Assembly: GCA_021324715.1 (NCBI GenBank)
Contig: JAJPIN010000157.1
Span: forward strand, 1-42,849
Source of the DNA: Nitrososphaeria archaeon
GTDB taxonomy: Archaea > Thermoproteota > Nitrososphaeria > Nitrososphaerales > Nitrososphaeraceae
Direction of reading: 5' to 3'
Length of the DNA stretch: 42,849 bases
Part shown: piece after piece, positions 5,778 to 41,035 of the stretch
How positions within the stretch are numbered: the first letter of the stretch is position 1
How the letters are laid out: the number at the start of each line of letters is the position of its first letter
Translations under genes and position numbers: made by a program
Notes under the pieces: model-generated
What the model saw: only the letters and a program-made list of their open reading frames with translations
Told to the model about the DNA's origin: nothing
The model's database searches: none

Positions 5778-5923
5778 ATTAATCCTTAAATAAGATGGTC
5801 ATAATTACTGCGAATATAATTGCTGGTAATGAGATATACATGTTATTTGCTCCCTTCATTAATTGCAAGATCTATTGTTGCCCACAGTTCTATTAGTATT
5901 TGTGTTATTGATGTCATGATTAG

Positions 5924-5952
5924 AGAATAACATTGCCGATAAGTCAGTGCAA
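5924..5952 (-). promoter_or_regulatory. sigma70-like promoter for the leftward operon: TTGCAC-17-TATTCT with TGn extension; -10 ends 6 nt before an ATG at 5917
   Basis: reverse complement of AGAATA (5924-5929) and GTGCAA (5947-5952), 17-nt spacer. Confidence 0.6.
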
Positions 5953-5963
5953 GATAAAAAATG

Positions 5964-5978
5964 TATGGCTTTGTATGG
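5964..5978. promoter_or_regulatory. operator-like TATGG-N5-TATGG upstream of leftward promoter
   Basis: read directly. Confidence 0.5.
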
Positions 5979-6435
5979 TCATTCTTGAGTCATATTTTTA
6001 TGTATCCCTATTCGTTCGTTGATAGTTGAATTGATGCATTTTTCATGCCATTGTCGTAGCAGACTGAGCATACAAGCGCATCTGCTGCATATCATTCGTA
6101 TCACAATTGGCACAGAATTTGCATTTGGAACTTGTAGCTTTTATCTTTCTGACATTAATGTCTCGGATTAATTACGTATGTAGTGCGACATATGTGACTC
6201 ACCCCCGCCATGGGTGGACCCTATGATGTGTAAGGGTAGTAATAAATGACTAATCTCTCTACGCGCTAACGAAATCACCATTCTAACTATCGAATATAAT
6301 TGATCTTTTTGAGTTATGTAAACTAAGCCGCCCACAAAAATAAAAAACAAAATCCCCACCCAAATTCAAAAAGCCAATAATATCAACCACTTGATGCCGC
6401 ACAATTTCTTGCACAATTTGATGGACTTATTGTCT

Positions 6436-6453
6436 AAAAAACGCCAGTTTTTT
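6436..6453. repeat. perfect hairpin AAAAAAC-GCCA-GTTTTTT in divergent control region
   Basis: read directly. Confidence 0.6.
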
Positions 6454-6463
6454 ACTATCGATG

Positions 6464-6476
6464 GTGCATGATGCAC
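6464..6476. repeat. perfect inverted repeat GTGCAT-G-ATGCAC in divergent control region
   Basis: read directly. Confidence 0.6.
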
Positions 6477-6590
6477 AATGGCTTAAGAAAGTAACTAAAT
6501 AGTAGTTATAAATCTAATGACTTAAAAAGTGAGCAGAATTTAATCATGCACTACTGCATTTTTTATTTGAATAGATTCGAGCACTTATGT

Positions 6591-6596
6591 TATAAT
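6591..6596 (+). promoter_or_regulatory. promoter -10 TATAAT (extended TGTTATAAT) upstream of ATG 6612; TTGAAT 18 nt upstream
   Basis: consensus match. Confidence 0.5.
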
Positions 6597-6611
6597 ACAT
6601 TTTCACCTTTT

Positions 6612-6839
6612 ATGACTAAAGAAGAAGATCTAGAATTCCAAAAATGGCTCGATGAATCTTTCGATGATATGTTTAACGAAGATCCTGGATTTCAACTAAT
6701 CCCATCCCCCACACAAAGTAAAAACAATTGCAAGCATCACCAGAAGAATAAGACCCCAATTGCCCTCCCAGAGAAGTCCTTTGAGAAGTGGTTTGTCTGT
6801 AGAAACTGTGGCAAGCCCATGTCCCAAAAGCCAGATTAA
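6612..6839 (+). CDS. small acidic protein with C-terminal CxxC; start re-assigned downstream of promoter
   Basis: MTKEEDLEFQKWLDESFDDMFNEDP...CRNCGKPMSQKPD. Confidence 0.55.
   Translation: MTKEEDLEFQKWLDESFDDMFNEDPGFQLIPSPTQSKNNCKHHQKNKTPIALPEKSFEKWFVCRNCGKPMSQKPD
6706..6714 (+). repeat. CCCCCACAC motif copy 4
   Basis: exact 9-mer. Confidence 0.9.
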
Positions 6840-6844
6840 AAAGC

Positions 6845-6873
6845 TTGACAAGTGAATAGCAGAAAGTTACTAT
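6845..6873 (+). promoter_or_regulatory. promoter TTGACA-17-TACTAT, 7 nt before ATG 6881
   Basis: consensus -35 with 17-nt spacer. Confidence 0.65.
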
Positions 6874-6880
6874 AAATTAG

Positions 6881-7609
6881 ATGAATCCTCGTGTCCTTAT
6901 CTTTGACATTGAAACGAGATACATAATCTTCCGTGGTTGGAGAACCGGGAAGCAATTCGTAGACCAATCGCAAATCGTACTAGGTGAAGATAGTGATATC
7001 ATCTGCATCAGTTATAAATGGCTTGGAGAGAAACAAATCCATACATTACATTGGGGCCTTCAAGAACAAAGCAGTGCAAATATGATAGAAGCATTCAGCA
7101 AGGTGGTTGAGTCAGCAGATCTCTGTGTAGGTCATAACTGTGATGGCTTCGATATCAAACACATCAATACCCAAAGACTCTTGCACAACCAACCTCCCAT
7201 TGCTTGGCCTTCGTCTGAAGACACCCTAAAACAAATCCGCAAGCAATTCTACTTACCCAGCTATCGCCTCGACTACTTATCTAAACTACTCACCGGCACT
7301 GGCAAAGCCAAGATGGACTTTAGCGACTGGATAGATGTTGTAGAAAAGAAATCTACAAAAGCCCTAAAAAAGATGATCCACTACAATCGCCGCGACGTAA
7401 AGAAGCTAGAAGAAGCCTACAAAATAATCGCACCCCATCTAAAACCAAAACTACATGTAGGCATAGTAACCGGGGCAGGCAAAGATGTCTGTACTCGCTG
7501 TGGTTCAAAAGAATCTCGATCCAAAGGAATCGTATATTTAACTTCTGGTAAGTATAGACGCCGCCAGTGTAAAGCATGTGTAACAATTTATAGAGGAGCA
7601 AAAATATGA
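6881..7609 (+). CDS. DEDD-family 3'-5' exonuclease/RNase H-like protein with C-terminal zinc ribbon
   Basis: LIFDIET, GHNCDGFD, YNRRDV motifs; CTRCGS...RRRQCKAC. Confidence 0.75.
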   Translation: MNPRVLIFDIETRYIIFRGWRTGKQFVDQSQIVLGEDSDIICISYKWLGEKQIHTLHWGLQEQSSANMIEAFSKVVESADLCVGHNCDGFDIKHINTQRLLHNQPPIAWPSSEDTLKQIRKQFYLPSYRLDYLSKLLTGTGKAKMDFSDWIDVVEKKSTKALKKMIHYNRRDVKKLEEAYKIIAPHLKPKLHVGIVTGAGKDVCTRCGSKESRSKGIVYLTSGKYRRRQCKACVTIYRGAKI

Positions 7610-7836
7610 TGTTGTATGATCCAGATGGTCGACTAGAATCACCGTGGGAATGCTCAATCCGCAAAACAAGAAATGGCTACATTGTAACCTGGTATATAGA
7701 GATTCAAGACTCAAAAGAACCTCTCTACCGATTAGAAGAGTATCCCTGCAAATCAATCAAAGAAGCTATTGGCATTGCTACCGAATACTTAGGCGAACAT
7801 AACGTACTCGTAGACATCGTTAACGAAGACGAATAA
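7606..7836 (+). CDS. hypothetical protein
   Basis: ORF track; overlaps 7609. Confidence 0.5.
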   Translation: MMLYDPDGRLESPWECSIRKTRNGYIVTWYIEIQDSKEPLYRLEEYPCKSIKEAIGIATEYLGEHNVLVDIVNEDE

Positions 7837-7845
7837 GCTTCCGGG

Positions 7846-7854
7846 GTGTGGGGG
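7846..7854 (-). repeat. CCCCCACAC motif copy 5
   Basis: exact 9-mer, intergenic, adjacent to promoter. Confidence 0.9.
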
Positions 7855-7859
7855 CTCTG

Positions 7860-7888
7860 TTGAACTATGTATGGCAATGTGATATAAT
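7860..7888 (+). promoter_or_regulatory. promoter TTGAAC-17-TATAAT, 5 nt before GTG 7894
   Basis: consensus boxes, 17-nt spacer. Confidence 0.65.
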
Positions 7889-7893
7889 GTAGT

Positions 7894-8550
7894 GTGGACG
7901 ACTCGACCAAAAATCCCCCTTCAGATGATCTCAAACAAGTATGGCGACAAGAAACCAAACGTAAGCGCCGTGCTGATAAGGTTGCTAAAGAAAAAGAAGT
8001 AGCCTCTGTCTATCAGGCTGATGCTAAAGAGATAGCAGAATCACAGAGTGATTGGGATAAACTTAAGACCTTGGCCCAACTCAAATTTCCCCCACATCTC
8101 GCAGAGAAATTCAAACTAAGACCAGAACAAAGACTCGCTGCTATAGCTTTCTGTATTGGTTGGTCTATAGAAAAGATCTCCCTCGCCTCGGGAATCCACC
8201 GCAACACCATCTCTCGCTGGTTCAATAGTGAAGAGACTGTTCAAGAGTTTATGAAGGCGGTACAATACCATACAGGTAATAAAGACTCTAAAGAGATCAT
8301 CGATAATGAGCAATACACTTCTCTTCAGGTTCTTAAAGATCTTAGGGATGATCCTATGACTTCCGCCTCCACTCGTAAAGAAATAGCTATCTGGTTCTTT
8401 GAACAAAAGCATGGCAAGGCCAAAGAATCCAAAGAGATTAAAGGAATCAATCTTAAAGATCTTACCGAGCAAATGAAGCAAGCAAAGGTAGATGATGTGC
8501 TTGCCTTGCTTGATGATGAGCCATTAGAATCAGATTCCAAAAATGACTAA
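7894..8550 (+). CDS. terminase small subunit (GTG start)
   Basis: HTH AAIAFCIGWSIEKISLASGIHRNTISRWF; directly precedes TerL. Confidence 0.7.
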   Translation: MDDSTKNPPSDDLKQVWRQETKRKRRADKVAKEKEVASVYQADAKEIAESQSDWDKLKTLAQLKFPPHLAEKFKLRPEQRLAAIAFCIGWSIEKISLASGIHRNTISRWFNSEETVQEFMKAVQYHTGNKDSKEIIDNEQYTSLQVLKDLRDDPMTSASTRKEIAIWFFEQKHGKAKESKEIKGINLKDLTEQMKQAKVDDVLALLDDEPLESDSKND

Positions 8551-9235
8551 GTATACCAACTTCCAAAAGAAGCTTATTGCAATGCCCCTGGCTCAGCGGC
8601 TCATTGCTCTACAAGATCCCTACACATTCATTAAAGCCTGCATCTATACCAGAGATGAAGTTGATAAAGATAACCCAGTCAAACTTGCCCCCATGACGCC
8701 AGGACTACCGGGATATAAACCATATGTAGAAACCGCCATACGTGTACTTGAGGCTTGCCCCAGAACTATCTTTGATAAGTCTCGCCGCATGTGGATCTCA
8801 TATACAATCTTAGCATTCTATCTTCATAGATCTTTTACAAACACAGACCAGAGATACGGTATCGTTACAGAAAAGTTTGATAAGAGTGTCGAGCACTTAC
8901 GCAACATGAAGTTAATGTATGAGAACATTCCAGAAGAGATCTACCCTAAAGCTTGTAGGCCCACACTCAAATCACGAGAAGGACTCATTGAATTTGAAGA
9001 GATCGGTTCTCTAATCCATGCTATAGCATCAGGTCCAGACCAAGCAAGGCAGTTCGGGTTCTCAGGCCTGTTTTTTGATGAGTATGACTTCTGGGCAGAC
9101 CAAGAGAGCACCTATGCTGCTGCACTTCCTACACTAGGTAATACAGGTCTTCTCACGATAGCCACTACGCATCAAATGATTGCTACTGGCGAAGACTCTC
9201 ACTATAAGAAGCTTCTCGAGGATCGCCTTGACTAA
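8543..9235 (+). CDS. terminase large subunit, ATPase part (N-terminal ORF of split TerL)
   Basis: Walker-B-like GLFFDEYDFW, motif-III-like TIATTHQ; ends at domain boundary. Confidence 0.75.
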   Translation: MTKYTNFQKKLIAMPLAQRLIALQDPYTFIKACIYTRDEVDKDNPVKLAPMTPGLPGYKPYVETAIRVLEACPRTIFDKSRRMWISYTILAFYLHRSFTNTDQRYGIVTEKFDKSVEHLRNMKLMYENIPEEIYPKACRPTLKSREGLIEFEEIGSLIHAIASGPDQARQFGFSGLFFDEYDFWADQESTYAAALPTLGNTGLLTIATTHQMIATGEDSHYKKLLEDRLD

Positions 9236-10118
9236 GAAAGTCCCAGGTGTGTCTGAGTTATCTCGGTTCCTTCCAGATGATCCTATGGGAGTATCAATTC
9301 ACAAGAATCCTAAGAATGGCTTCGTCGTAGTTGGTTTAGATTACTTTGCTGATCCAGAACGTAGAGATCCTAAGTGGATTCAAGAACAGCGCCAGACACT
9401 TGGTATCAAACGTTGTGCTGTAGAAGTAGAGCGCTCTTGGGAGACCTTTGCAGGTAAAGGAATCTATGACAAAGCATTCTATAAGCACCTGCACATTACC
9501 CCCACACCAATCTCATATAACCCACTATTTCCCATCTTCCGTGGCTGGGATTTCGGTGGCAATCAGTCAGTCGCAATATGTCAAATCATAGATGGTAGAC
9601 TCAACGTCTTAGATGAAATGCCAAACAAAGGACTTAACACCAGAGCCTTTGCCCCAGAAGTAATCTCATATTGCAATTCACGATATGGTAGTGACGTACA
9701 TTATTTAGACATCGTTGACCCCTCCGCTGCTTGGGAAGGTAAGACTGCTGAAGGCAAGGCCTGCACAGATGTGATGCGAGAGTACGACATGCTCCCCATA
9801 GCAGCACCCACAAATGATCCCCAGAAACGAATTGATGCAGTAATAGAACTCCTTATGCGCCTATGTCCAGATGGCAAACCCGCACTTCAGATAAGTCCTA
9901 ATTGCCAAATGCTTATTAGAGGATTTGAAGGAGGCTACCATTATCCAGAGAAAATCACTCAGGCTAAACGAATGGATCGCCCTGTAAAGAATCTATTCTC
10001 CCATATTCATGATGCTTTACAATATGTTGCCCTTCGCATGAAATCTCACAACACAGATCGATCAGAAGAAATAGATTATGAATCAGCCATCACCAGATAC
10101 AAGTTCTCAAATAATTAA
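9228..10118 (+). CDS. terminase large subunit, nuclease part (C-terminal ORF); possible TTG start at 9228 or frameshift product
   Basis: IFRGWDFGG RNase-H-like core, HDALQYV; SD-like GAGGA 5-6 nt before TTG 9228; frame +1 relative to upstream ORF. Confidence 0.7.
   Translation: MTKKVPGVSELSRFLPDDPMGVSIHKNPKNGFVVVGLDYFADPERRDPKWIQEQRQTLGIKRCAVEVERSWETFAGKGIYDKAFYKHLHITPTPISYNPLFPIFRGWDFGGNQSVAICQIIDGRLNVLDEMPNKGLNTRAFAPEVISYCNSRYGSDVHYLDIVDPSAAWEGKTAEGKACTDVMREYDMLPIAAPTNDPQKRIDAVIELLMRLCPDGKPALQISPNCQMLIRGFEGGYHYPEKITQAKRMDRPVKNLFSHIHDALQYVALRMKSHNTDRSEEIDYESAITRYKFSNN
9499..9507 (+). repeat. CCCCCACAC motif copy 6
   Basis: exact 9-mer. Confidence 0.9.
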
Positions 10119-10257
10119 GTTCCACAAAGTCTGTAAAAACTGTAGGATACAGCAACTTTCTCCACTAGAGAAGATCCAAGGTCTTTGTCGCAGCTGTAGA
10201 AAAGTTCTTACTGCTAAGCCAGCCCCCACACGCCCAAAGTATAGCTTCTGCAAGTAG
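10078..10257 (+). CDS. zinc-ribbon mini-protein (MNQPSPDTSSQIIKFHKVCKNCRIQQLSPLEKIQGLCRSCRKVLTAKPAPTRPKYSFCK)
   Basis: 59 aa ORF just below track cutoff; two CxxC. Confidence 0.55.
   Translation: MNQPSPDTSSQIIKFHKVCKNCRIQQLSPLEKIQGLCRSCRKVLTAKPAPTRPKYSFCK
10223..10231 (+). repeat. CCCCCACAC motif copy 7
   Basis: exact 9-mer, upstream of promoter. Confidence 0.9.
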
Positions 10258-10286
10258 TTGCCATATAATGCAATATATGGTATAAT
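10258..10286 (+). promoter_or_regulatory. promoter TTGCCA-17-TATAAT (extended TGGTATAAT), 8 nt before ATG 10295
   Basis: consensus boxes, 17-nt spacer. Confidence 0.7.
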
Positions 10287-10294
10287 CTTATATC

Positions 10295-10555
10295 ATGCCA
10301 ACAGACGTTAAAAAACGGTTGGCCGACGGTACAATCTCGTTAATACCGTTACTTCAAGTATCTAAAAGAGATGGAGGAACATATAGCAACGATTGTTTGT
10401 ACTGCCATCATTGCGGCCATTTCGTACCGCCTCGCACTTGCTTCACACAAAACGAAAAGTATTCGTGTCGCAAATGTGAGAACACTTCTGTTTTTATTAT
10501 TTGGGGCCCTTCGAAATCCGGCAGCTGGAACGCTGAGCTTGCTCCTATACACTAA
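10295..10555 (+). CDS. zinc-ribbon protein
   Basis: CLYCHHC...CFTQNEKYSCRKC; strong promoter immediately upstream. Confidence 0.6.
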   Translation: MPTDVKKRLADGTISLIPLLQVSKRDGGTYSNDCLYCHHCGHFVPPRTCFTQNEKYSCRKCENTSVFIIWGPSKSGSWNAELAPIH

Positions 10556-10557
10556 AG

Positions 10558-12477
10558 GTGACAATGACATCTGAATATGAATCTAAACTCGCTGATCAGC
10601 GACGCAAAGTAGCCGACTTCATTTTAAGCTGTGCAATCGAATCAAGACTAAATGAAAAAGTTCCCCGCCGACTACAAAACAAATTAAATTGGGACTACTT
10701 CCACGGAACAATTGACTGGTCACACAAGCGCGAATCAGATCCCAGAATCCACTTACATAAAATAGGCGTCTCCGCAGAGAGAACTAAAGCTAAATTCAAA
10801 GGTGCCCTAATGAAATGGGACCAATGGATCACAGTAGAACGCCACTATCTTCCCCCCAATCCGATCCTCCCCGACTTCGCTGCAAGAAATTTACTTATTA
10901 AACAACTTAAAAATGCCAAAGCTGAGACTGTAATCTCCGATGCTATCCTTCGTGGGCTTATGGAATCTAGAATCGCTATCAAAATTGGCAGCAAATATGT
11001 TACCAAACCCCGGTATACCAAGGATGGTGTGGGGGCTCTGGTAAGAGATGAAGAGAAAGTCTGGCAACTCAACCTTGATGCTATCCCTTTTGAAGGATTT
11101 CTTATCGATACTGAGAATACTAAAGACCCAATCTATCAAATTGAAGAGTGTAGAGTCGATTATAACCAAGTTTTAGAGCTTTCTTCTGAAGAACAGTCCG
11201 CAGATAAGCCATTTCGCCTAGAAGCGGTTAAATCTTTAGTGGCTTTCCCACAAAGAGAGCAAGAACAGGCTGAAAGAGCTGCTCGCGGCAACTATATTGA
11301 CATTCCAAGGCTTCGTCACCGTAAACAAATCCTAATTCAGAACTTTTACGGCACAATTCTCAATGAAGACGGTACTATTTTCGAATGGGAGACCGAATCA
11401 GGTGAAAAAATCCCTCTAAAGAACGTGTTTTGTGTCATGGCTAACGAATCAGAGCTTCTTATTGACCCAATGCAGAACAAAAGATGGTCAGCGAAGTCCC
11501 CATACATATCAGCAGACCCGCTACGCTCCCCAAGCAATGGTAGAAAAGCTCTTATGGACGCTGGTGTCTTAGTCAATCAAGCTCAAGATGAATTATTCTC
11601 ACTCGCATTAGCTGGTGCTCTTAAAGCAGCACACAATGTCACCTGGTATCGCAAAGATTGGATCGCGGATAAACGAGTCCTCTCTGGTGGTATCCGAGAT
11701 GGTGATCAAGTTGCTATCGATGCATCTTGCCCACCTAATGCCACACCCCTAGGCACAATTAAAACAGGTGAAGTCCCACAAGAAGTATTCACTATGCAGC
11801 AAGTCCTTGATCGAGTATTTGCAGAAAACGTCCTATCAAACCAGATCGACTTAAGTGGTAACTTACCCGGCAAGCAAGTCCGAGCTACTGAAGTCGTATC
11901 AGCATCTACCGCTATTGCAGATGTATTTGATTCAATGAGTGGTGACATTGAACATGATCTTATTGAGCCTCTTGCTGAAGAATGTCTTTATGAGATCGTT
12001 CAACACATTGATGAGATGGATGAAGAAGAAGTTAAATCTTGCTTTGAAGATCGTCAAGACCTAGCAGATCAATTCATGAAACTTTCTCCTAAGAAACGTT
12101 TTGAACAGGTCGCAGGTACTTTCAAATTTGGTGGCAAAGGTCTCCATGGTCTTATTGCAAATCAAGCCAAAGGCCAAATGATGGTAAATTTACTGTCAAC
12201 GATTATGAGCAATCCTCTTACCCAACAAGCAGTCGAATCATCAATCTCACCAGTCAAAATCATTAATGAGATCGCTAAAGGCATGGGTATGGATATCGAA
12301 GAGCTTAAACCATCTCCACAAGAGTCTCAGATGATTCAACAGAAACAACTTATTAGAGAACAGGCATTAGCCCAACAAGCAGGTGGTCAACAACCACAAC
12401 CAGGAAATGCTTCACAAGGATCGCAGCCATCCCCAGAACAACCCGCTGGTAATGGCGCACCCGGACAAGGAATGTAA
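10558..12477 (+). CDS. portal protein
   Basis: 639 aa directly after TerL; Q-rich C-terminus; podovirus-type portal features. Confidence 0.8.
   Translation: MTMTSEYESKLADQRRKVADFILSCAIESRLNEKVPRRLQNKLNWDYFHGTIDWSHKRESDPRIHLHKIGVSAERTKAKFKGALMKWDQWITVERHYLPPNPILPDFAARNLLIKQLKNAKAETVISDAILRGLMESRIAIKIGSKYVTKPRYTKDGVGALVRDEEKVWQLNLDAIPFEGFLIDTENTKDPIYQIEECRVDYNQVLELSSEEQSADKPFRLEAVKSLVAFPQREQEQAERAARGNYIDIPRLRHRKQILIQNFYGTILNEDGTIFEWETESGEKIPLKNVFCVMANESELLIDPMQNKRWSAKSPYISADPLRSPSNGRKALMDAGVLVNQAQDELFSLALAGALKAAHNVTWYRKDWIADKRVLSGGIRDGDQVAIDASCPPNATPLGTIKTGEVPQEVFTMQQVLDRVFAENVLSNQIDLSGNLPGKQVRATEVVSASTAIADVFDSMSGDIEHDLIEPLAEECLYEIVQHIDEMDEEEVKSCFEDRQDLADQFMKLSPKKRFEQVAGTFKFGGKGLHGLIANQAKGQMMVNLLSTIMSNPLTQQAVESSISPVKIINEIAKGMGMDIEELKPSPQESQMIQQKQLIREQALAQQAGGQQPQPGNASQGSQPSPEQPAGNGAPGQGM
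11027..11035 (-). repeat. CCCCCACAC motif copy 8
   Basis: exact 9-mer. Confidence 0.9.
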
Positions 12478-12723
12478 ATGGCTGTGTTACGGGGGACAAC
12501 CAGAAGTCGTTTACCCTCATTTGTAAAAAGTATTATTACACCCATAATTGAGTTATTTCAAACATGGGGATTACTTTCTTTTACATATTCTTCTAAACCA
12601 GAACGCCAAGCAACAATTATAACCACAGGAACAATGCCCCTTTCTATTGCAATAAAAAGTGAACCAGAACAACCTAGACAAGATGTTTTTGTTTCTTTTA
12701 ATTGCACTTATTTTATTCGGTAA
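12478..12723 (+). CDS. hypothetical protein
   Basis: ORF track. Confidence 0.45.
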   Translation: MAVLRGTTRSRLPSFVKSIITPIIELFQTWGLLSFTYSSKPERQATIITTGTMPLSIAIKSEPEQPRQDVFVSFNCTYFIR

Positions 12724-12726
12724 TTT

Positions 12727-14028
12727 ATGTCATCAAGTTTTGTACGAATTCCAGATGATTCAGGATACAGCGGTCCCAGAATACGCACTTTTACAACCAC
12801 GGATGGTGGAAATACAGTTCATCAACATGCAATGGTTTTGGTGGATCAGAATGGTAACCCTATAACACCAACGAATCCTTCTGATACACAACCAATCACA
12901 GGAACTGTCTCAGTAGATAACTTTCCAGCAACTCAACCAGTAAGTGGTCCAATAACAGATACTCAACTAAGAGCCTCCCCTGTTCCCACTACTCTTTCAG
13001 GTCTTACAACTAAAGCATTAAACAATCAAATAGTAGCCACAGATGTAGGTCTTGTTTCACAAACAGTTATTCATGGTCTTACAACAGGTGGTGGCGGAGG
13101 TTATGTAGAGGTAAAAGTAACTCCTTCTGGTGCAGTTGTGGCAGATACCTCAGGATCAACACAACCCATAAGCGGATCAGTAAGTGTAAGCAATTTTCCA
13201 GCAACTCAGCCTATCAGTGGTAGTGTATCAATTTCTAACTTTCCAGGTACCCAACCAGTAAGTGCATCTTCTTTGCCATTGCCTAGTGGTGCAAGCACTG
13301 AAGCAACTCTCGCTTTAATCAAAGCAAAAACAGATAATTTAGATGTGGCATTAAGTACTCGAACTAAACCAGCAGATACTCAAAATATAACTGGGTCAGT
13401 ATCAGTAAGTAATTTTCCTGCTACACAAGTGGTTACAGGTATATTCTTTCAAGCGACACAACCAGTAAGTATTGCATCTCCGATTGTTTCTAAAACTACA
13501 GATGAACAAACACTTACTGGTGTGTATTACTATCATGCTGGTGCTCTGACAGTTCAGGCAGCAGCAGATGCAGCAACAGCAGGTCGTTTTTGGGTAATTA
13601 ATCCTATCGGATCTGGTGGAACTATTCGTATCAAATCTATTGAATTTGCCAGTCAATTAGGCTCTGCTTTAGCTGCTCCAACAAGTCCTAGAATAACAAT
13701 AGAACGAGTTAGTTTCACTGGAACATCTTCGGGTGCAACCTTGACTGCAGCTAAAAGGAAAACATCTGATGCTACACCTAAAAGCATTTTAACAACTGCC
13801 TCAACTGGATTGACGTTAACCGCAGGAAGTGTTATAATGTCTTTACTACCTATCGCCTCTGCCACAGCCGTTGGATATACTGCAAGTGCTGTTGAAAAAT
13901 GGAAACCAGATATAAATGATCGAATTGAACTAGTCCCAGGAGAAGGCATTGTTTGTAGACAAGCAGATACAGGAACTACTTCTGATACTAGAAGATTTAC
14001 TATTGATATAACTTTAGAGGAATTTTAA
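12727..14028 (+). CDS. virion structural/fiber-like protein with SVSNFPATQPxSG repeats
   Basis: repeated VDNFPATQPVSG / VSNFPATQPISG / ISNFPGTQPVS / VSNFPATQVVTG. Confidence 0.65.
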   Translation: MSSSFVRIPDDSGYSGPRIRTFTTTDGGNTVHQHAMVLVDQNGNPITPTNPSDTQPITGTVSVDNFPATQPVSGPITDTQLRASPVPTTLSGLTTKALNNQIVATDVGLVSQTVIHGLTTGGGGGYVEVKVTPSGAVVADTSGSTQPISGSVSVSNFPATQPISGSVSISNFPGTQPVSASSLPLPSGASTEATLALIKAKTDNLDVALSTRTKPADTQNITGSVSVSNFPATQVVTGIFFQATQPVSIASPIVSKTTDEQTLTGVYYYHAGALTVQAAADAATAGRFWVINPIGSGGTIRIKSIEFASQLGSALAAPTSPRITIERVSFTGTSSGATLTAAKRKTSDATPKSILTTASTGLTLTAGSVIMSLLPIASATAVGYTASAVEKWKPDINDRIELVPGEGIVCRQADTGTTSDTRRFTIDITLEEF

Positions 14029-14213
14029 TGTTTAAAAGTATAACAGCAAAACAACCAAAATCAAAGTCTATTAAAAGAAATCCCGTTAGGCATGTTGGTA
14101 AAAAGAAAAGTCCTAAAAAATCAGATGATCTTGGTTTTATGGATTCATTAGGTGGTATCGGTGGCGGAATGCGCGGAACTGGTGAGCCTGGTGATTCAGA
14201 AAGTTCAGATTAA
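14028..14213 (+). CDS. small basic phage protein, tandem paralog 1
   Basis: NPVRHVGKKKSPKKSDDLGFMDSL. Confidence 0.55.
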   Translation: MFKSITAKQPKSKSIKRNPVRHVGKKKSPKKSDDLGFMDSLGGIGGGMRGTGEPGDSESSD

Positions 14214-14214
14214 T

Positions 14215-14400
14215 ATGAAAAAACCCCTATTTAAAAAGCCAGAATTTAAAGCACCCCAAAGAAACAAAGTAAGACATATTGGTCGTAAGAAATCTCTTGT
14301 GGCCAAAGATGTAGGTGATTTGAGTTGGCTTGATTCACTAAGTAAAGGTGCTGGCGGCAATATGTCTCCTGGCCCATCAGATAATGAAGGAGGCAACTAA
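14215..14400 (+). CDS. small basic phage protein, tandem paralog 2 (start re-assigned)
   Basis: NKVRHIGRKKSLVAKDVGDLSWLDSL. Confidence 0.55.
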   Translation: MKKPLFKKPEFKAPQRNKVRHIGRKKSLVAKDVGDLSWLDSLSKGAGGNMSPGPSDNEGGN

Positions 14401-14582
14401 TGCCACTAAAATCAGGACAAGGTAAAAAAGTACGTCAAGAAAACATTGCAGAAATTCTTGATAGTTACAAAAATAAAGGTAGCATTGGTACATCCAAACC
14501 TGCTTCTAAAAAAGCTGCAATCAGACAAGCAGTCGCAATTTCATATGCTAAACAGAGAGAAGGCAAACGTGGCCGGAAATAA
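14400..14582 (+). CDS. small basic phage protein (DUF6496-like pattern)
   Basis: MPLKSGQGKKVRQENIAEIL...KKAAIRQAVAISYAKQREGK. Confidence 0.5.
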   Translation: MPLKSGQGKKVRQENIAEILDSYKNKGSIGTSKPASKKAAIRQAVAISYAKQREGKRGRK

Positions 14583-14796
14583 CTTATTTCAATCAGATGA
14601 TCTACATGGTGGCTCGCAAGCTCCTGTAGAGCAAAAACAACAGTCTAGTGGTGGAGGAGTTGGTGGCGCATTAAAAGGTTTTGCTACAGCAATGGATAAA
14701 GTAGCTCATAATGATGCTCTACAGCAATCTGAAGAAGCTAAAGCAAATAATTCTCAACCACAATTTACTAATCCTAATAGTGCAGGGAGCATGTAA
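14569..14796 (+). CDS. hypothetical protein (GTG start, MAGNNLFQSDDLHGG...)
   Basis: overlap with preceding gene; frame of ORF 14446..14796. Confidence 0.45.
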   Translation: MAGNNLFQSDDLHGGSQAPVEQKQQSSGGGVGGALKGFATAMDKVAHNDALQQSEEAKANNSQPQFTNPNSAGSM

Positions 14797-15014
14797 TGGG
14801 AAAAAAACCAGCAGATGAAGTAATGTTTCAAAATGATAGTGATGAAAAGGAATTCGAAGTTCGTTCTGGTCAGGCTAGAAAAGTTCTTCCTGATTTCAAT
14901 ACCCCAGAGAATAAAGACGCCTATAATCAAAAAGTAAAAGCAGATACAGATGCCGCAGCAGCAAGAGGCGGCAAACTCTATCCTGATGCATTTGATAAAA
15001 CAAAGAAATATTAA
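14796..15014 (+). CDS. hypothetical protein
   Basis: ORF track; TAATG coupling. Confidence 0.5.
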   Translation: MGKKPADEVMFQNDSDEKEFEVRSGQARKVLPDFNTPENKDAYNQKVKADTDAAAARGGKLYPDAFDKTKKY

Positions 15015-15241
15015 TGGAATTTCTTAAACGTGAGTTTGAGGGGCTTCCAGACGCAGTGGTTCAATCCGTCTTGAAGCAACTCGAACGTGCTATTCGTGCT
15101 GCGGCTATCTCCATCCATGACGAGAGCCCCCACACGGATGCGCAGGCCCGACGAATTTGTGCCAGAATCGCTGCCACAATCGAATTTGCCCAAACGTTTA
15201 AGTCCGCTATTGAACCCGAAGATTCCCTCCCGAAAGAATAG
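15014..15241 (+). CDS. hypothetical protein
   Basis: ORF track; TAATG coupling. Confidence 0.5.
   Translation: MEFLKREFEGLPDAVVQSVLKQLERAIRAAAISIHDESPHTDAQARRICARIAATIEFAQTFKSAIEPEDSLPKE
15127..15135 (+). repeat. CCCCCACAC motif copy 9
   Basis: exact 9-mer. Confidence 0.9.
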
Positions 15242-15261
15242 ATCCGCTGGATTTGTCTTCC

Positions 15262-15270
15262 GTGTGGGGG
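15262..15270 (-). repeat. CCCCCACAC motif copy 10
   Basis: exact 9-mer, intergenic, upstream of promoter. Confidence 0.9.
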
Positions 15271-15288
15271 CAGGTGTTATTACTATAC

Positions 15289-15317
15289 TTGCCATATATG
15301 GTATTGTATGGTATAAT
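15289..15317 (+). promoter_or_regulatory. promoter TTGCCA-17-TATAAT (extended TGGTATAAT), 6 nt before ATG 15324
   Basis: consensus boxes, 17-nt spacer. Confidence 0.7.
15297..15311. promoter_or_regulatory. operator-like TATGG-N5-TATGG in promoter spacer
   Basis: read directly. Confidence 0.5.
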
Positions 15318-15323
15318 ACAAGT

Positions 15324-15425
15324 ATGAATGATTTGTCGTGTGTAGATCATTCATTTTTAGGTATGCTGTCGAGCATATTTAATACACGTAAGCCAACAAA
15401 CCCTACGACGGTAGATAGAATTTAG
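15324..15425 (+). CDS. 33 aa ORF MNDLSCVDHSFLGMLSSIFNTRKPTNPTTVDRI, first cistron of head operon
   Basis: ATG at predicted transcription start. Confidence 0.4.
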   Translation: MNDLSCVDHSFLGMLSSIFNTRKPTNPTTVDRI

Positions 15426-15432
15426 AGGCACT

Positions 15433-16134
15433 ATGAGCGAATCACAAACGGATGTTGCGGTCGTACCGCAGGATGCAAAAGAGTCAACACCCCAACCAGC
15501 TCCGGCTGCCAAGGTAGAGCCTATTTTGCTTAAGGTACATGGCAAAGAGTTTGATGTTTCAACGGAGCAAGGCAGGCTTCAACACCAGGCATGGGCTGAA
15601 GCAATGTCAAGCGTAGTCGGAAGACTCGGAGCTGAGGTGGGTACACTTCGGCAGTTCAAAGAAGAGCGAACTCCTTCGGGAGATGAAGCTCAGGTTATAG
15701 CGAAAGCCAAAGAAAAGGCTGCTCAAGGTGAGATTGATCTTGCTTTAGAACAGGTTTTTTCTTACTCGAAAGAGCAAACACTTAAACTAAAATCTGATTT
15801 TGAACGTGAACGTCATAACAATGCGCTGTGGGAAGAGTATTTCGCAGACAGGGCAGAACTGGTAAAACAGTTAGGCAAAGAAAAGATCAAACGTATCGCT
15901 GAGGCAACTCTCGATATCAAAAGTAAAGATAAAGATGCTTTTGCGGTAATGGATGACTTTTTTAAGCCTTTCTTAGTTGTTACTCAGACCCCGAAGAAAT
16001 CTGACGAAAAGCCCCCTTTAAGTCTCTCAGGGAAGGCACCTAATACTTCTTCTGCACCAGAAAAGAAAGCAGATAAAGAACAAGTTTCTATTGATGCTCT
16101 CTTAGATGGTCGATCTATTAACCGGATCAAATAA
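15433..16134 (+). CDS. scaffolding protein
   Basis: acidic/helical, immediately before capsid gene. Confidence 0.6.
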   Translation: MSESQTDVAVVPQDAKESTPQPAPAAKVEPILLKVHGKEFDVSTEQGRLQHQAWAEAMSSVVGRLGAEVGTLRQFKEERTPSGDEAQVIAKAKEKAAQGEIDLALEQVFSYSKEQTLKLKSDFERERHNNALWEEYFADRAELVKQLGKEKIKRIAEATLDIKSKDKDAFAVMDDFFKPFLVVTQTPKKSDEKPPLSLSGKAPNTSSAPEKKADKEQVSIDALLDGRSINRIK

Positions 16135-16168: not shown

Positions 16169-17104
16169 ATGTCATTATTTCAAGGCTGGCAAGATTCGCC
16201 TTCAACAGGTGCTTATCAGCAACATGAGGTTATGGAAGTATTCCGCCAAGCAGTCGCGAAAACGATTTGGCTTCCTTATGCTAAACGTATCTCGATTCAG
16301 AGCGGACAATCCGTAACTGTTCCAATCAGAGGGTCACTCGCCGAACCTTCCTCAACATCGGCACTTAACGAGTCTATCTCTATTCCATTAGATAAACTCA
16401 CAATCACCGCTAAAACCATCAGTTTGACCGAACGTGGGCGAGGTGTCATGGTCTCCAAAAAAGGCATGAACCGATCCCCAATCGATCTTTTAGCTGAGCA
16501 TAGAATGGCTCTTGCTGAACAGATGGGACTTGATATGGATACGGTTCTTAAAGCCGGATTCGCGTCAGGTCAGCTCAAGTATGTTGCCACTGGGGCAGCT
16601 TCTTATAACCTCGCTACCAACGGTACCGCAGGTGCAGCAGCTCTCTCCAATGCTAACTTCTTCCACATCCGAAAGATGAGAGATCTCGCTTTCAGAACGT
16701 ATTTGATGCCAAAGAACGACAACGGAAGCTATTCTTTCGTATGTTCTACTGCGTCACTTCGTGGTATCTTGGATGATCCTGAGTTTCTGGAAATCAATAA
16801 ATTTGGTAATCCAGAGAGATTCTCCTCAAACCTATCCGGAAAAATTGCTGACGTGGAAATCTACGAAGATAACCACAGTTTAAGCGATTCTAAAGGAACC
16901 AATAGCGATGTCGGCGAAGGCGTCTTCATTGCTAAAGATGCGGTATATTATGCCGTATTACAAGAACCTTCCATTCATTATGATGCGACCCACGATCACG
17001 GTCGATTCGTGTCACTTGCTTGGTATGGCGATTGGGGTTGTGGAACTTCAACTGATTCGGCAAACGCCGGGTTAGTACGACTCATTCACTTCACATCTAG
17101 TTAA
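16169..17104 (+). CDS. major capsid protein (N4-gp56-like)
   Basis: 311 aa, position after scaffold; ISLTERGRGVMVSKKGMNRSPIDLLAEHRMALAEQMGLDMD. Confidence 0.75.
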   Translation: MSLFQGWQDSPSTGAYQQHEVMEVFRQAVAKTIWLPYAKRISIQSGQSVTVPIRGSLAEPSSTSALNESISIPLDKLTITAKTISLTERGRGVMVSKKGMNRSPIDLLAEHRMALAEQMGLDMDTVLKAGFASGQLKYVATGAASYNLATNGTAGAAALSNANFFHIRKMRDLAFRTYLMPKNDNGSYSFVCSTASLRGILDDPEFLEINKFGNPERFSSNLSGKIADVEIYEDNHSLSDSKGTNSDVGEGVFIAKDAVYYAVLQEPSIHYDATHDHGRFVSLAWYGDWGCGTSTDSANAGLVRLIHFTSS

Positions 17105-31342: not shown

Positions 31343-31843
31343 GTGTTTCATATTTGGCCTTGTCCTGATTGTAAAGTCCTCATAAATAACATCACATCGA
31401 AATGTAGTTGCGGGTATATAAAAGTGGTTGAACTAATAACTCTAGACAAATATTTAGGTCTCGTGCCCCCACACGATCCCACACTATTGAGCAATGCTAA
31501 AGATCTCCTCTTAAAAGTAAACTCCCTATTACAAGAGATAGGAATAACTGACGTAGTAATGACCTCTGGTTATCGCTCCCCCGAATATAATACAGCCATT
31601 GGCGGGGCAGCAAATAGTAAGCACACCACATGCCAGGCAGTAGATTTAAGCGATAATGACCGAATTATAGGCATGCGGCTTTATACCTTTCAAGATGGGC
31701 TCATCTCTAGAGGTCTTTATTGCGAGGATTTGGATTATTGTATTAAAAAGAATGGATCTAAGTGGGTGCATATTCAGTCTGTAGCACCTAAATCGGGGAA
31801 TCGCTTTTTCATTCCCTACGCAGGTCCGCCAATACGGAAATAA
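31343..31843 (+). CDS. M15-type D,D-carboxypeptidase endolysin with N-terminal zinc ribbon (GTG start)
   Basis: TSGYRSPEYNTAIGGAANSKHTTCQAVDL...WVHIQ; CPDC..CSC. Confidence 0.8.
   Translation: MFHIWPCPDCKVLINNITSKCSCGYIKVVELITLDKYLGLVPPHDPTLLSNAKDLLLKVNSLLQEIGITDVVMTSGYRSPEYNTAIGGAANSKHTTCQAVDLSDNDRIIGMRLYTFQDGLISRGLYCEDLDYCIKKNGSKWVHIQSVAPKSGNRFFIPYAGPPIRK
31466..31474 (+). repeat. CCCCCACAC motif copy 16
   Basis: exact 9-mer. Confidence 0.9.
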
Positions 31844-31875: not shown

Positions 31876-31956
31876 CTGTGACTACCAGGGGTCTCGAGGG
31901 GCTGACTGTGTAATCCTAATATAGCACCACTAACTTTAGTTGTCAAGTAAGGACTT

Positions 31957-32656: not shown

Positions 32657-33851
32657 GGGAAAGCCTAGAAAAATGTCTTTCAGAACCTATAATAGTTTCT
32701 CTTATTGAACTCGATCTCTTAAGACCTTCAACAACACCAGTAACGGTCTCACTAACAGAGATAAATTTACCATGCTGTAAGAGTAATCTTCGTAAACCGC
32801 TTTCACTGATAGTATCAGGTGCCAAAGGAATAAGTTCTGCAAGTTGACTATGGAGATCATCATCTTTTTCGATGTTTCTAGTACCAAATGCGCTGATCAT
32901 ATAAGGTTCAACCTCTTCGATCCATTGGAGTGCCTGCTCTATATCACTAATTGATATAATCTTTGAACCTCTCATTGCAGCAAGCGTTATAGCGACTTTG
33001 GTTATATGATCTGGCTTACGACCATAGTAATTCTGGTAAAACTCACCTATAGCATCAAAGCAATCATTATCAGCTTTCTCTGCAAGTTCAATATATCGCA
33101 TTTCAGCTTCTCGGTCAAAAACAATAGGCCCTAATAACGCATAAACGCTTCGTAGGGCTTCGATCAGCTCTTGGTAGCTACCTAGGTCTTGGTTAACTAG
33201 AGATCGTTGTTTTAAGACCCTATTAGGCTCTACTACAAACAAGATACGGCTAGAGAGTCCTGAGGTAATGAGCTTATCTTGGGCCGCAGACTGTAAAAAT
33301 GACTCTGTGGTGCCTCCAAGAAGGGTAAGAGAAGGATTGGCCAGGATTAGGGTCTTATTATCAGTTACAATACGTTTTTGAATCTCTACATAAAGACCTT
33401 TAGAGTCATAAAAATCAATTAATTCATTTGTGAGAGTTCCACCACCAAAATCGACCATATTGATAGCAAGTTCGGAGGCATATACGAATAGAGGAGAAGA
33501 CCTGAGATCCCCCACACCGGGGACAGGATATAACTTCTCTGAGTCTTTGAGTTCTTTATATAGGGCTGCTTGGGTAATCTTCGTTGGTCCAAGACGTGGC
33601 TTTGGCTTACCAGGAATCTCGATCTTATTAAACAAATCTACTGTAAGCTGTGCTGCGGTTGATTTCCCTGCTGCAGGTGGTCCAACAAGAATAGTATACA
33701 TATTAGGAAAGATCACCCCTAGACGACCCCGATCTAACCATACCCGACGCTCAAGTAAAGCAGCAACAATAGTGATAAATGACCACCGATGATACATCAC
33801 AGAACCTTTAATCGGCTCTACGTAATTTAAGTATTTATCTATGAGTTGCAT
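32643..33851 (-). CDS. DUF3987-type AAA ATPase (replication)
   Basis: Walker A VGPPAAGKST; overall DUF3987 pattern. Confidence 0.7.
   Translation of the reverse strand: MQLIDKYLNYVEPIKGSVMYHRWSFITIVAALLERRVWLDRGRLGVIFPNMYTILVGPPAAGKSTAAQLTVDLFNKIEIPGKPKPRLGPTKITQAALYKELKDSEKLYPVPGVGDLRSSPLFVYASELAINMVDFGGGTLTNELIDFYDSKGLYVEIQKRIVTDNKTLILANPSLTLLGGTTESFLQSAAQDKLITSGLSSRILFVVEPNRVLKQRSLVNQDLGSYQELIEALRSVYALLGPIVFDREAEMRYIELAEKADNDCFDAIGEFYQNYYGRKPDHITKVAITLAAMRGSKIISISDIEQALQWIEEVEPYMISAFGTRNIEKDDDLHSQLAELIPLAPDTISESGLRRLLLQHGKFISVSETVTGVVEGLKRSSSIRETIIGSERHFSRLSHDPA
33509..33517 (+). repeat. CCCCCACAC motif copy 18
   Basis: exact 9-mer. Confidence 0.9.
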
Positions 33852-36091
33852 TTAGCTAAACTACCCCAAGCCCCGCCTGATTTAAGATCAAAAGGAATTC
33901 GTCTAGAGACTCCATTTATTACTATGTCGAGTTTGGCATGGGCATCTTTGATGAGTCCCAAAACCAAATTAACTTTGTCCTTATTTATTTGAAGTAAGAG
34001 TGCGTCATGAATTTGGGCCAAAACATTAAAGGATCTATTGTATTCACTTGTCTTTGATAGAAGTATCCACAACTTATTTATTGTATCGACCACAGTTGCT
34101 TGTGGAATAAAACTTAAGCCCTTTCTAACCATTTCTGAATCTAATGGACCGTAGAAGAGTCCCGATCGATGTAGTGGGGTTTCGAGTTTTCTCGTTCGTC
34201 CAAGTTGCGCTTCGATAGTCCCTTGCCAAATAGGAATAGCAGGAAAAGTGGCGGCGCGAGCCTCCAAAAGCTTTCGAGAATCAGCCACACTAATTGACAG
34301 GTCAGCTTCAGTAAGGCAAGAATCCGAGAATTTTTCGGCTCCCATGCCGTAATTACTAGCGTGATTGATCCGTTTTCCCAGCTGTCGTGGGCAAACAAGT
34401 CTACTTTTTTCTGTAACTCTATCTGCTGTGTATTGGTGGACATCTTCATTATTCTCCATTAGCTCTATTAGTTTTTGTTCATTTGAAAGCCAAGCAACTA
34501 CTCGAAGCTCAGCTTGTGAAAGATCAATCTCAACTAAGATTTTTCCTTCATCAGGTATAAATAAATTCTTAATATTTAATGTGGACTGCTCACTCGGTCT
34601 TGGTATCGTGAGGATGTTGAGCCCTGTATCCCAGGGTGTTTTTTGAGCAGAGAATCTTCCACTAATTGTGCCAGCAATATTATAGAAGAAGCGTAATCTT
34701 TTATCTTCATCAAGTAAGAGACTTGCATAGGTGGATTTGAGTTTAGATAGCCGATTGTATATAAGTAAGTTTTCAATAAAGGGATGTGGATTCTTTCTAT
34801 GTAATTTAAGAAGACTTTCACGGTCTGTGGAGGGGCGACCTTTCTTAGTTGGGATTCGATAGCCAAGGGCAATGAGGACACTTTTGATCTGCTTATCTGA
34901 ATTGGGGTTGAACTTTTGCGGGCTTTCTTCAAACACTTCTTTAAAGGCCTTTTTTTCATCTGTATCGTTCTCCTTATCTCTTATTGTTTTACGAATCTTT
35001 CTTGGCTCAACTAAAGGATCTCCAATAGAAGATAAAACATTCATTACCGGAGTAAGTTCTTTATTAAGAGCATCTTTTAATTGCTTAAGAAACTCCTCAT
35101 CTATTTTTACACCCCGGACACATGTATCATACACCAAAGGAATAAGAGGCGCAATATATTCATTATAATGACCCATCTTCTCAGTTCTAGAAAGTTCAGC
35201 AAGTTGTCGCAAATAAACAGTAAATGTTCTAGATGCGTCATAAGCATTGTATCTCCAAAAAGCCTCTACATCCCCAGTAAGTTTAAAATCTTTATTATCT
35301 TTCCATGGAGCACAATAAAGATAAATACGCCCCAAATCACGTAAGCTTTTAGGAAGTAGTGGATTGAGTGAAGAGGCCATAATCATTGTATCTGCCACAT
35401 TCATCTGTGTCTCAATACCATGATATCGTAAGATCATCGTATCAAATATGAAGTTTTGAAATATTTTTAGCTTATCGCTAAGTAAAACCATTTGAATATA
35501 ATCCCACACAACTAACTCTTCTTCAGGAGACCAATAATTAGTTAAATGTTTATTGGCCAGGGGTATACAAATAACCTCTGTCGTAGATGCTGCAAAAGCA
35601 ATAGAAGTGATCTCACAGGTTTCTGGAACACATTCAATATCGATTGACACAGCTTCATTGGTGTTCACAAGTTTGTGTACAAAGGATTCTACATCTTTAA
35701 GTTCAGGTTTTAGGATCGTGTGGGGGCTGGGATCAATAGTAGATGCGCCTAACAGAAGTTGCTTTGCTTTCTTTAGTGACCAGTCTAGCCAATGAGTAGT
35801 TAAATGATCTTTGAAGACTTCTTTATAATCTAGACATGGAATGACTGTGTTTGTTTCTGTTTCTACTATATAACTGTGACAATCAGAAACAGATAAAGTT
35901 GGATCTCCAATAATGGATCGTGTTGCTACGTCTCCAACAGTAACTAAAATGGAACCTTTTGTTGGGATTTCTTCTGGTTTTAAGATCTTTACTTTTTGAG
36001 GGATCTTTAAGCGAGCGAGGGATTGTTCAAACTGTTTTCTGAAGTAGTCTTGTTTATTATCGATTCCGAGAATTTCAATCCTATCATTCAC
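33839..36091 (-). CDS. polA: family A DNA polymerase with 3'-5' exonuclease domain
   Basis: SIDIECVPE exo motif; TISGRFSAQ, LVEIDLSQAELRVVAWLS, QIHDALLLQ. Confidence 0.9.
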   Translation of the reverse strand: MNDRIEILGIDNKQDYFRKQFEQSLARLKIPQKVKILKPEEIPTKGSILVTVGDVATRSIIGDPTLSVSDCHSYIVETETNTVIPCLDYKEVFKDHLTTHWLDWSLKKAKQLLLGASTIDPSPHTILKPELKDVESFVHKLVNTNEAVSIDIECVPETCEITSIAFAASTTEVICIPLANKHLTNYWSPEEELVVWDYIQMVLLSDKLKIFQNFIFDTMILRYHGIETQMNVADTMIMASSLNPLLPKSLRDLGRIYLYCAPWKDNKDFKLTGDVEAFWRYNAYDASRTFTVYLRQLAELSRTEKMGHYNEYIAPLIPLVYDTCVRGVKIDEEFLKQLKDALNKELTPVMNVLSSIGDPLVEPRKIRKTIRDKENDTDEKKAFKEVFEESPQKFNPNSDKQIKSVLIALGYRIPTKKGRPSTDRESLLKLHRKNPHPFIENLLIYNRLSKLKSTYASLLLDEDKRLRFFYNIAGTISGRFSAQKTPWDTGLNILTIPRPSEQSTLNIKNLFIPDEGKILVEIDLSQAELRVVAWLSNEQKLIELMENNEDVHQYTADRVTEKSRLVCPRQLGKRINHASNYGMGAEKFSDSCLTEADLSISVADSRKLLEARAATFPAIPIWQGTIEAQLGRTRKLETPLHRSGLFYGPLDSEMVRKGLSFIPQATVVDTINKLWILLSKTSEYNRSFNVLAQIHDALLLQINKDKVNLVLGLIKDAHAKLDIVINGVSRRIPFDLKSGGAWGSLAKCNS
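35718..35726 (-). repeat. CCCCCACAC motif copy 19
   Basis: exact 9-mer. Confidence 0.9.
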
Positions 36092-36837
36092 TTTACCGCC
36101 GTCAAGACTACAGGCCCCTCGGAAGTAATTGCAACAGTATGTTCAAAATGAGCAGCTAAAGAATCATCTCTAGTTACTACTGTCCAACAATCATTAAGTA
36201 CTAAAGTTTCTGGATTTCCAGCGACTACTACAGGCTCAATTGCTATTACCATACCTTCTTGCAATTCTATACCTGTATTAGGTATACCTTGATTAGGTAT
36301 CTTCGGATCTTCATGCAAAGTACGTCCGATTCCATGACCTGTATATCCTTCTACAACAGAATAGCCGGCAAGTTTTACATATTGCTCTATTGTAAAAGAC
36401 ACATCCCCCACACGAAAACCAGGGGAACAAAGTTTAATTGCCTCGGTAAGAGCCTCTTTTGTGGTTTGGATTAGATCTGAAGCATCTGTAGTGGTGGTGC
36501 CGATGGGTATTGTAATTGCCATATCTGTATTAAAACCATCTAAAATCGCTCCCACGTCCAAAGATAAAATGTCTCCGCCGACTAGTTTGCGATCATTTGG
36601 GATGCCATGGATGACTTCGCTATTGACTGAAGCACAGATATTGTATTCGTAACCTCGGTATCCTTTGAAAGCACTTTTAAGACCTTCTTTTTGAAGCATG
36701 CGAGCAAAGATACCGTCTAATTGTTTTGTAGTGCGTCCCGGAGAGGCAAGTTCTGCAAGTTCAGATAGTACTTTTGCTAAGCGTTTGCCACACTCTTTCA
36801 TTACTTCTATTTCTGATTTTGATTTTAGAATTATCAT
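36088..36837 (-). CDS. map: methionine aminopeptidase, type I
   Basis: SVNSEVIHGIP, LSLDVGAILDGFNTDMA, GHGIGRTLHEDP, GMVIAIEP, FEHTVAIT. Confidence 0.9.
   Translation of the reverse strand: MIILKSKSEIEVMKECGKRLAKVLSELAELASPGRTTKQLDGIFARMLQKEGLKSAFKGYRGYEYNICASVNSEVIHGIPNDRKLVGGDILSLDVGAILDGFNTDMAITIPIGTTTTDASDLIQTTKEALTEAIKLCSPGFRVGDVSFTIEQYVKLAGYSVVEGYTGHGIGRTLHEDPKIPNQGIPNTGIELQEGMVIAIEPVVVAGNPETLVLNDCWTVVTRDDSLAAHFEHTVAITSEGPVVLTAVK
36405..36413 (+). repeat. CCCCCACAC motif copy 20
   Basis: exact 9-mer. Confidence 0.9.
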
Positions 36838-39556: not shown

Positions 39557-40024
39557 TTATTTAGATTGCTCTTTTACTGCGCCTGCCATAACTTTCATAT
39601 ATTCTTCAATTATATCTGAATTTTGGATAGAATTACCTACAGATTCTTTTTTGTATCGATCATCTAGATCACTTCTATTTTCTGTTTCGAATGTGCTAAT
39701 AAATACAAGACAGCATAAAGCGTGTGCGATGTGGGACAATCCAGATTCTTCATCCTTATCTTTTCCAGAATTGAAATCCAATAGGTGTCGCTGGGCAGCT
39801 GAGATGAGCCTACTATATAAAATTCCTTTTCGCCAGTTATGAGCAGCATATTTCCGTGCCCCGAAGCCGAGAACTTTCGCAATTTCCACAATAGCTTCAC
39901 TAGGGACCAAAGAGATAGGTGGTTTTTCTGAATCATATTTAAGACCTCCTAAAGAAATTTCTTTTTCATGTGTGTGTTTTGTTATTTGATCACAACTAGC
40001 GCAATCAGGAGCTTCTGGTTTCAT
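39557..40024 (-). CDS. DUF5664 / dATP-dGTP diphosphohydrolase-like (MazG-related)
   Basis: GLKYDSEKPPISLVPSEAIVEIAKVLGFGARKYAAHNWRKG...HLLDFNSGKDKDEESGLSHIAHALCCLVFI. Confidence 0.75.
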   Translation of the reverse strand: MKPEAPDCASCDQITKHTHEKEISLGGLKYDSEKPPISLVPSEAIVEIAKVLGFGARKYAAHNWRKGILYSRLISAAQRHLLDFNSGKDKDEESGLSHIAHALCCLVFISTFETENRSDLDDRYKKESVGNSIQNSDIIEEYMKVMAGAVKEQSK

Positions 40025-40191
40025 ACTGCACCGCTTCCATCGCAATCAGGTTTTTTACAAGCACAAGATTTCATTTCGGCTTCAAGTTCACGAATGTCAT
40101 TACAAGCATCTGAAGCACCATGCCAATCTTCTCTAGAAATGCAAGACATCAAATAGCGAATGAGTGCTTCTTTTTGTTCATCTCTAGTCAT
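40021..40191 (-). CDS. small Cys-rich protein
   Basis: 56 aa ORF: MTRDEQKEALIRYLMSCISREDWHGASDACNDIRELEAEMKSCACKKPDCDGSGAV; ATGA coupling to next gene. Confidence 0.5.
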   Translation of the reverse strand: MTRDEQKEALIRYLMSCISREDWHGASDACNDIRELEAEMKSCACKKPDCDGSGAV

Positions 40192-40825: not shown

Positions 40826-41035
40826 TTAAAGATCCTCCAATTTTGAATTAATCAAAGCATCTCTTATAATTACATGCATAAGTTCTAAGTTACTTTCATA
40901 ATAATCATAAGTAATATCAGTAATTCTTTGTTGTTCTTTAATTATTAATCCAGTTAATTTTATTAATAGAATTCCTAATATTCCAAATAAAAAACACAAA
41001 ACAGCACAAATTAAAATTGTGTCATTTGAGATCAT
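40826..41035 (-). CDS. small membrane protein
   Basis: N-terminal TM. Confidence 0.5.
   Translation of the reverse strand: MISNDTILICAVLCFLFGILGILLIKLTGLIIKEQQRITDITYDYYESNLELMHVIIRDALINSKLEDL

Follow-up and report, generated by a model that had tools for sequence, protein, structure and literature searches.

The window analysed here comprises 42,849 nucleotides of contig JAJPIN010000157.1, from the MAG of a Nitrososphaeria archaeon (GCA_021324715.1), and is that of a bacterial tailed phage. Its promoters and main genes are listed in Table 1. The large terminase appears as two overlapping genes, 8543-9235, which carries the match to terminase, and another ORF, in the +1 frame, that possibly starts at TTG 9228 behind GAGG, with TTGACTAA as the overlap; the arrangement may be a split gene, a frameshift or an indel. 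In the rightward lysis region, strong promoter-like sites point leftward at 31918 (-) and 31664 (-), antisense to or within the endolysin gene. The leftward genes include a dATP/dGTP diphosphohydrolase, a dNMP phosphatase-like protein and PolA, whose additional matches to DpoZ models score far under the cut-offs of those models, and no PurZ was seen in the window: a faint hint that the phage may have 2-aminoadenine DNA. A further leftward product, 37% identical to a "dpG-synthase-like" protein of a metagenomic phage, hints at a possible modified-guanine pathway.

Table 1. Positions of promoters, genes and leader elements in the window (distances are from the end of the -10 to the start codon)
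Feature	Position	Strand	Remarks
Small ORF	5917-5843	-	24 codons; ATG 6 nt from the leftward promoter; no Shine-Dalgarno
Promoter TTGCAC-17-TATTCT	5952-5924	-	6 nt to ATG 5917
Promoter TTGAAT-18-TATAAT	6567-6596	+	Further strong promoter; in-frame ATG 6612 lies 15 nt downstream of the -10
Promoter TTGACA-17-TACTAT	6845-6873	+	7 nt to ATG 6881
PolB-type exonuclease	6881-7609	+	Predicted leaderless, leader 0-1 nt
Promoter TTGAAC-17-TATAAT	7860-7888	+	5 nt to GTG 7894; extended -10
HTH / small-terminase-like gene	7894-8550	+	GTG start; predicted leaderless
Large terminase	8543-10118	+	
Promoter TTGCCA-17-TATAAT	10258-10286	+	8 nt to ATG 10295; extended -10
Putative zinc-ribbon ORF	starts at 10295	+	86 aa; leaderless or leader up to ~3 nt (moderate)
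Promoter TTGCCA-17-TATAAT	15289-15317	+	6 nt to ATG 15324; extended -10
Hairpin 1	15324-15354	+	-10.3 kcal/mol, z -3.5
Hairpin 2	15357-15382	+	-10.7 kcal/mol, z -5.0
Gene with Shine-Dalgarno behind the 15324 leader	15433-16134	+	AGAGG before ATG 15433; coding signal
Major capsid gene	16169-17104	+	Next after 15433-16134
Endolysin	31343-31843		M15 peptidase
PolA	33839-36091	-	
Methionine aminopeptidase	36088-36837	-	Type I (TIGR00500, 5.5e-84, above cut-off)
dATP/dGTP diphosphohydrolase	39557-40045	-	
dNMP phosphatase-like protein	41032-41553	-	
Relative of a dpG-synthase-like protein	42037-42801	-	

Because the genes and signals of the window are bacterial, unlike those of the MAG, the contig was probably misbinned, which is the simplest reading of a bacterial-type phage contig inside an archaeal MAG. 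If the contig truly belonged to that MAG, the AT-rich boxes upstream of its genes would be archaeal promoter elements with an accidental resemblance to -10 and -35 boxes; this would fit the archaeal RpoB that shares the bin and the TATA-like stretches about 26-31 nt upstream of 10295 and 15324, but no such stretch lies upstream of 6881 or 7894, and the type I methionine aminopeptidase, the family-A DNA polymerase and the M15-peptidase endolysin all point to bacteria. The two sets of genes also have opposite profiles: TATA-like elements peak at -35 to -30 in sampled genes of the MAG, 3 of 40 of which have a Shine-Dalgarno (SD) site, whereas no peak of TATA elements around 30 nt before the starts is seen across the genes of the window, and a strict test finds SDs before 19 of 67. 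AGGAG-like sites are common at genes inside operons, as the sequence-only reading of this DNA had observed. Archaeal promoters in the window were rejected on this comparison, and an archaeal origin of the contig is very improbable.

The same phage sequence is present in other assemblies: stretches sampled from IMG/VR contig 3300005526_000015, which is equal in length, are identical to the window, and positions 2474-25230 are 100% identical to contig 3300027821_000032 from another dataset. Besides the window, one contig carrying both the major capsid gene and gene 10558 was found, again 100% identical; searches with the major capsid protein, 10558, PolA and the endolysin found no close relative. 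The nearest matches of the methionine aminopeptidase are mostly from Patescibacteria (46-49%), and a tree leaves the phage protein unplaced. In sampled genes of Patescibacteria (genomes L138-L169), -10-like boxes occur at gaps of 5-9 nt in 69 cases against about 29 (29.1) expected, hinting that leaderless mRNAs may be common there; a literature search on leaderless mRNAs in Patescibacteria found nothing relevant. Patescibacteria were not accepted as the host, as their sampled genes, unlike those of the window, lack SDs (a fraction of 0.06, the same as in shuffled sequence), and raised numbers of -10-like boxes occur in them at 15-35 nt too.

All five promoters proposed by the sequence-only reading to abut a start codon were found, each with a 17-bp spacer and a -10 ending 5-8 nt before the start. 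This spacing lies within the 16-18 bp of sigma70/sigmaA promoters, and the four on the + strand match the consensus at 10-11 of 12 positions. An extended -10 (TG one base before the -10) is present at four of the five, the 6881 promoter being the exception. Measured from the first T of the -10, the start codons of 6881, 7894, 10295, 15324 and 5917(-) lie 13, 11, 14, 12 and 12 nt away, and none of the five has an SD upstream. The promoters at 10258 and 15289 may be related or co-regulated, because they have 12 of 17 spacer bases in common (P ~0.0017 for one pair, with ten pairs compared). These two promoters also share TTGCCATATA and TATGGTATAAT, and hairpins are predicted at the mRNA 5' end of each; they are possibly co-regulated late promoters. 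Counts of the motifs TTGCCATA and CCATATATGG showed no significant excess.

Promoter look-alikes beside start codons could arise by chance in AT-rich intergenic DNA, and indeed promoter-like sites are no commoner overall than in shuffles (48 in the first 20 kb against 51 expected). With the overall count close to expectation, what stands out is where the best sites lie. Promoters were scored by counting matches to TTGACA and TATAAT separated by 16-18 bp and adding the TG, with at least 10 of 13 counted as strong; the consensus score was simple and the gene list hand-made, no trained gene or promoter callers being used. Across 77 gene starts, with the small ORFs at 5917(-) (24 codons) and 15324 (33 codons) left out, a strong promoter with its -10 ending 5-8 nt upstream was found at three, against 0.12 expected from shuffled upstream regions; three were reached in none of 1000 shuffled trials (maximum 2), and no other distance bin holds a strong promoter at a gene start. 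A looser test, of a -10-like hexamer alone at automatic gene starts, gave no excess at gaps of 5-9 nt (2 against 3.0 expected), which would suit chance, but set against the strict count and the empty bins it leaves that explanation extremely improbable. Since the excess vanishes under the looser definition, the signal is carried by a small number of strong promoters and is not a genome-wide habit. Neither was this distance enriched among 1563 genes of 81 other viral contigs, mostly with a related exonuclease (9 cases there, while control bins hold 9-16).

At three of these promoters the start codon is fixed by an in-frame stop 0, 6 or 9 nt upstream (6881, 7894 and 10295, respectively). An in-frame TAG abuts the ATG of the exonuclease gene, whose position agrees with homologues, and no other start occurs in this frame until codon 68, which follows the conserved catalytic DIET motif at the N-terminus; the first 12 nt of the RNA are predicted to be fairly paired, in a weak fold. 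In distant relatives of the exonuclease the promoter-start arrangement is not shared at the exonuclease gene. The -10 upstream of 7894 contains an in-frame TAA, and no further start occurs before codon 60; this gene has a strong coding signal, and its RNA is predicted to have an unstructured 5' end. The TAA upstream of 10295 likewise falls within the -10. The coding signal of the 10295 ORF is weak, at 0.022 compared with 0.075 for the +1 frame; its cysteine pairs suggest that its product may be a zinc ribbon, and a hairpin predicted in its RNA begins at the G of the AUG and is milder than those at 15324. On the leftward strand, the ORF at 5917 is followed by ORFs at 5841-5779 (20 codons) and 5777-5601, with 1-nt gaps between successive ORFs, and the 5' end of the RNA is predicted to be unpaired; the packing looks like that of a real operon, and a leaderless small ORF at 5917(-) is plausible.

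Because these starts are fixed by upstream in-frame stops or tight ORF packing, lack an SD and lie 11-14 nt from the first T of the -10, leaderless mRNAs are predicted, strongly for 6881 and 7894 and moderately for 10295, where the leader could extend to about 3 nt. The claim of the sequence-only reading, that all five first cistrons are leaderless or nearly so, thus finds support at the level of prediction for 6881 and 7894, less firm support for 10295 and 5917(-), and no support at 15324. The next in-frame starts at 6881 and 7894 lie deep in the gene; behind 15324, the gene at 15433 has its own SD.

The strong promoter at 6567-6596 offers another way of reading these genes, in which the abutting promoters are real but 6881 and the others are read mainly as SD-less downstream cistrons of transcripts from upstream promoters such as this one. 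The intergenic gaps are short, and transcription may run on through the intervals. The strong promoters, however, cluster exactly at the leaderless distance, and a downstream cistron lacking an SD would itself need an unusual start, so that we consider this reading decidedly unlikely. For the in-frame ATG at 6612, the same upstream promoter would give a leader of about 7-9 nt; in Lactococcus cremoris no leader of 4-14 nt was observed (PMC10986495), so this pair counts as a candidate.

The fifth site, at 15324, has a different architecture. Two stable hairpins are predicted in tandem here, each matched in stability by none of 200 shuffles, and the first begins at the predicted first nucleotide of the mRNA, so that a stable stem-loop would occupy the extreme 5' end. 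The region 15324-15382 contains a 9-bp perfect inverted repeat, and for folding the first 60 nt from 15324 rank among the top 0.4% in the window. A search of Rfam gave no match. The 15289-15317 site is a real promoter candidate, but ATG 15324 is probably not the intended start: this ATG sits within the stem of hairpin 1, the 33-codon ORF that it opens has no coding signal, and the gene at 15433 is SD-led. For these reasons, together with the tandem hairpins, 15324-15382 is probably better explained as a structured leader than as a leaderless gene.

The shared geometry of the five sites (a 17-bp spacer and a 5-8 nt gap) could instead mean that all of them, 15324 included, are leaderless, with the small ORFs serving as leader peptides that bring ribosomes to the operon. 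There is precedent in mycobacteria, where a 5'-terminal ATG or GTG is both required and sufficient, and small leaderless ORFs lie upstream of many annotated genes (PMC4633059). The burial of ATG 15324 in a 5'-terminal stem of -10.3 kcal/mol with a second hairpin behind it, the missing coding signal and the SD at 15433 speak against such a role, and we regard it as unlikely. The ORF at 5917(-) does resemble the mycobacterial small leaderless ORFs, in that its 24 codons lie at a predicted RNA 5' end and 1 nt from the next ORF; in the mycobacterial coupled class stop and start overlap (RTGA), whereas at 5917(-) they are 1 nt apart, and its translation is putative (PMC4633059).

The leader of T7 gene 10 is a 5'-terminal stem-loop that stabilises mRNA. 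Such stem-loops also stabilise the E. coli ompA and papA mRNAs (reviewed in PMC3997798), and the region 15324-15433 resembles them in that a stable hairpin is predicted right at the 5' end, with an SD-led gene behind it. It differs in having two tandem hairpins, the first with an ATG at its base, and in that its stabilising effect is putative; by analogy, the tandem hairpins likely stabilise the mRNA or regulate its use.

We propose that leaderless first cistrons at 6881, 7894, 10295 and probably 5917(-) are combined with a hairpin leader at 15324, a joint reading to which we give a probability of about 0.62. Host-type sigma70/sigmaA promoters would drive the phage transcription units from very short intergenic gaps, and RNA would start, judging from the position of the -10, at the start codon or within about 3 nt of it at 6881, 7894 and 10295, and probably at 5917(-) too. 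Binding of 70S ribosomes to the 5'-terminal start codon would be the probable route by which the leaderless first cistrons are translated, with many of the later cistrons translated via their SDs. The promoter at 15289 would yield an mRNA that begins with two tandem hairpins and continues into the SD-led gene 15433 and then the capsid gene; the hairpins would most likely guard the message or tune its translation. It is a long shot that this 5'-end architecture also acts as a switch, with leaderless mRNAs at most promoters and hairpin-capped ones at the twin promoters 10258 and 15289.

Leaderless-type promoter placement is already known in phages and is not new here. In Cluster O (Corndog-like) mycobacteriophages, the sigmaA-like promoters PL1, PR2 and PL2, including a divergent pair, are predicted to make leaderless mRNAs, with the start codon forming the very 5' end of the RNA (PMC4351075). 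The divergent pair was checked in the records of Firecracker and Dylan: TTGACA stands in both, the spacers are 18 and 17, and the -10 stops 7 and 8 nt short of the ATG. Like the window, these are dsDNA tailed phages with several sigmaA-like promoters abutting start codons, and they contradict the sequence-only reading in its view that leaderless first cistrons are unusual for a dsDNA phage. The window belongs to another phage lineage, its -10 boxes are near-consensus and mostly extended, and one of its look-alikes is probably a hairpin leader. The suggestion that initiation is altered during infection found no supporting evidence: genes inside operons keep their SDs, so ordinary initiation must work.

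Beyond phages, leaderless bacterial genes start about 12 nt after the first T of their -10 (PMC3160421), and in Deinococcus roughly one gene in three has a -10 motif 6-7 nt upstream (PMC12340547). The window shares with the leaderless genes of Actinobacteria, Deinococcus-Thermus and Lactococcus (PMC3160421, PMC12340547, PMC10986495) the distance of about 12 nt from the first T of the -10 and the lack of an SD. In those bacteria, however, the arrangement is a genome-wide habit of the host, whereas in the window it belongs to a few strong viral promoters.

With these results an uncultivated phage joins the small number for which several promoters are predicted to make leaderless first cistrons. 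They also indicate that a simple distance rule can mislead, as a structured leader accounts better for one of the five similar-looking sites. Recognition of such starts would help the calling of genes in viral metagenomes, since callers based on SDs may mis-start these genes. Were the switch real, a change in host ribosomes or initiation factors during infection would re-weight the phage gene modules.
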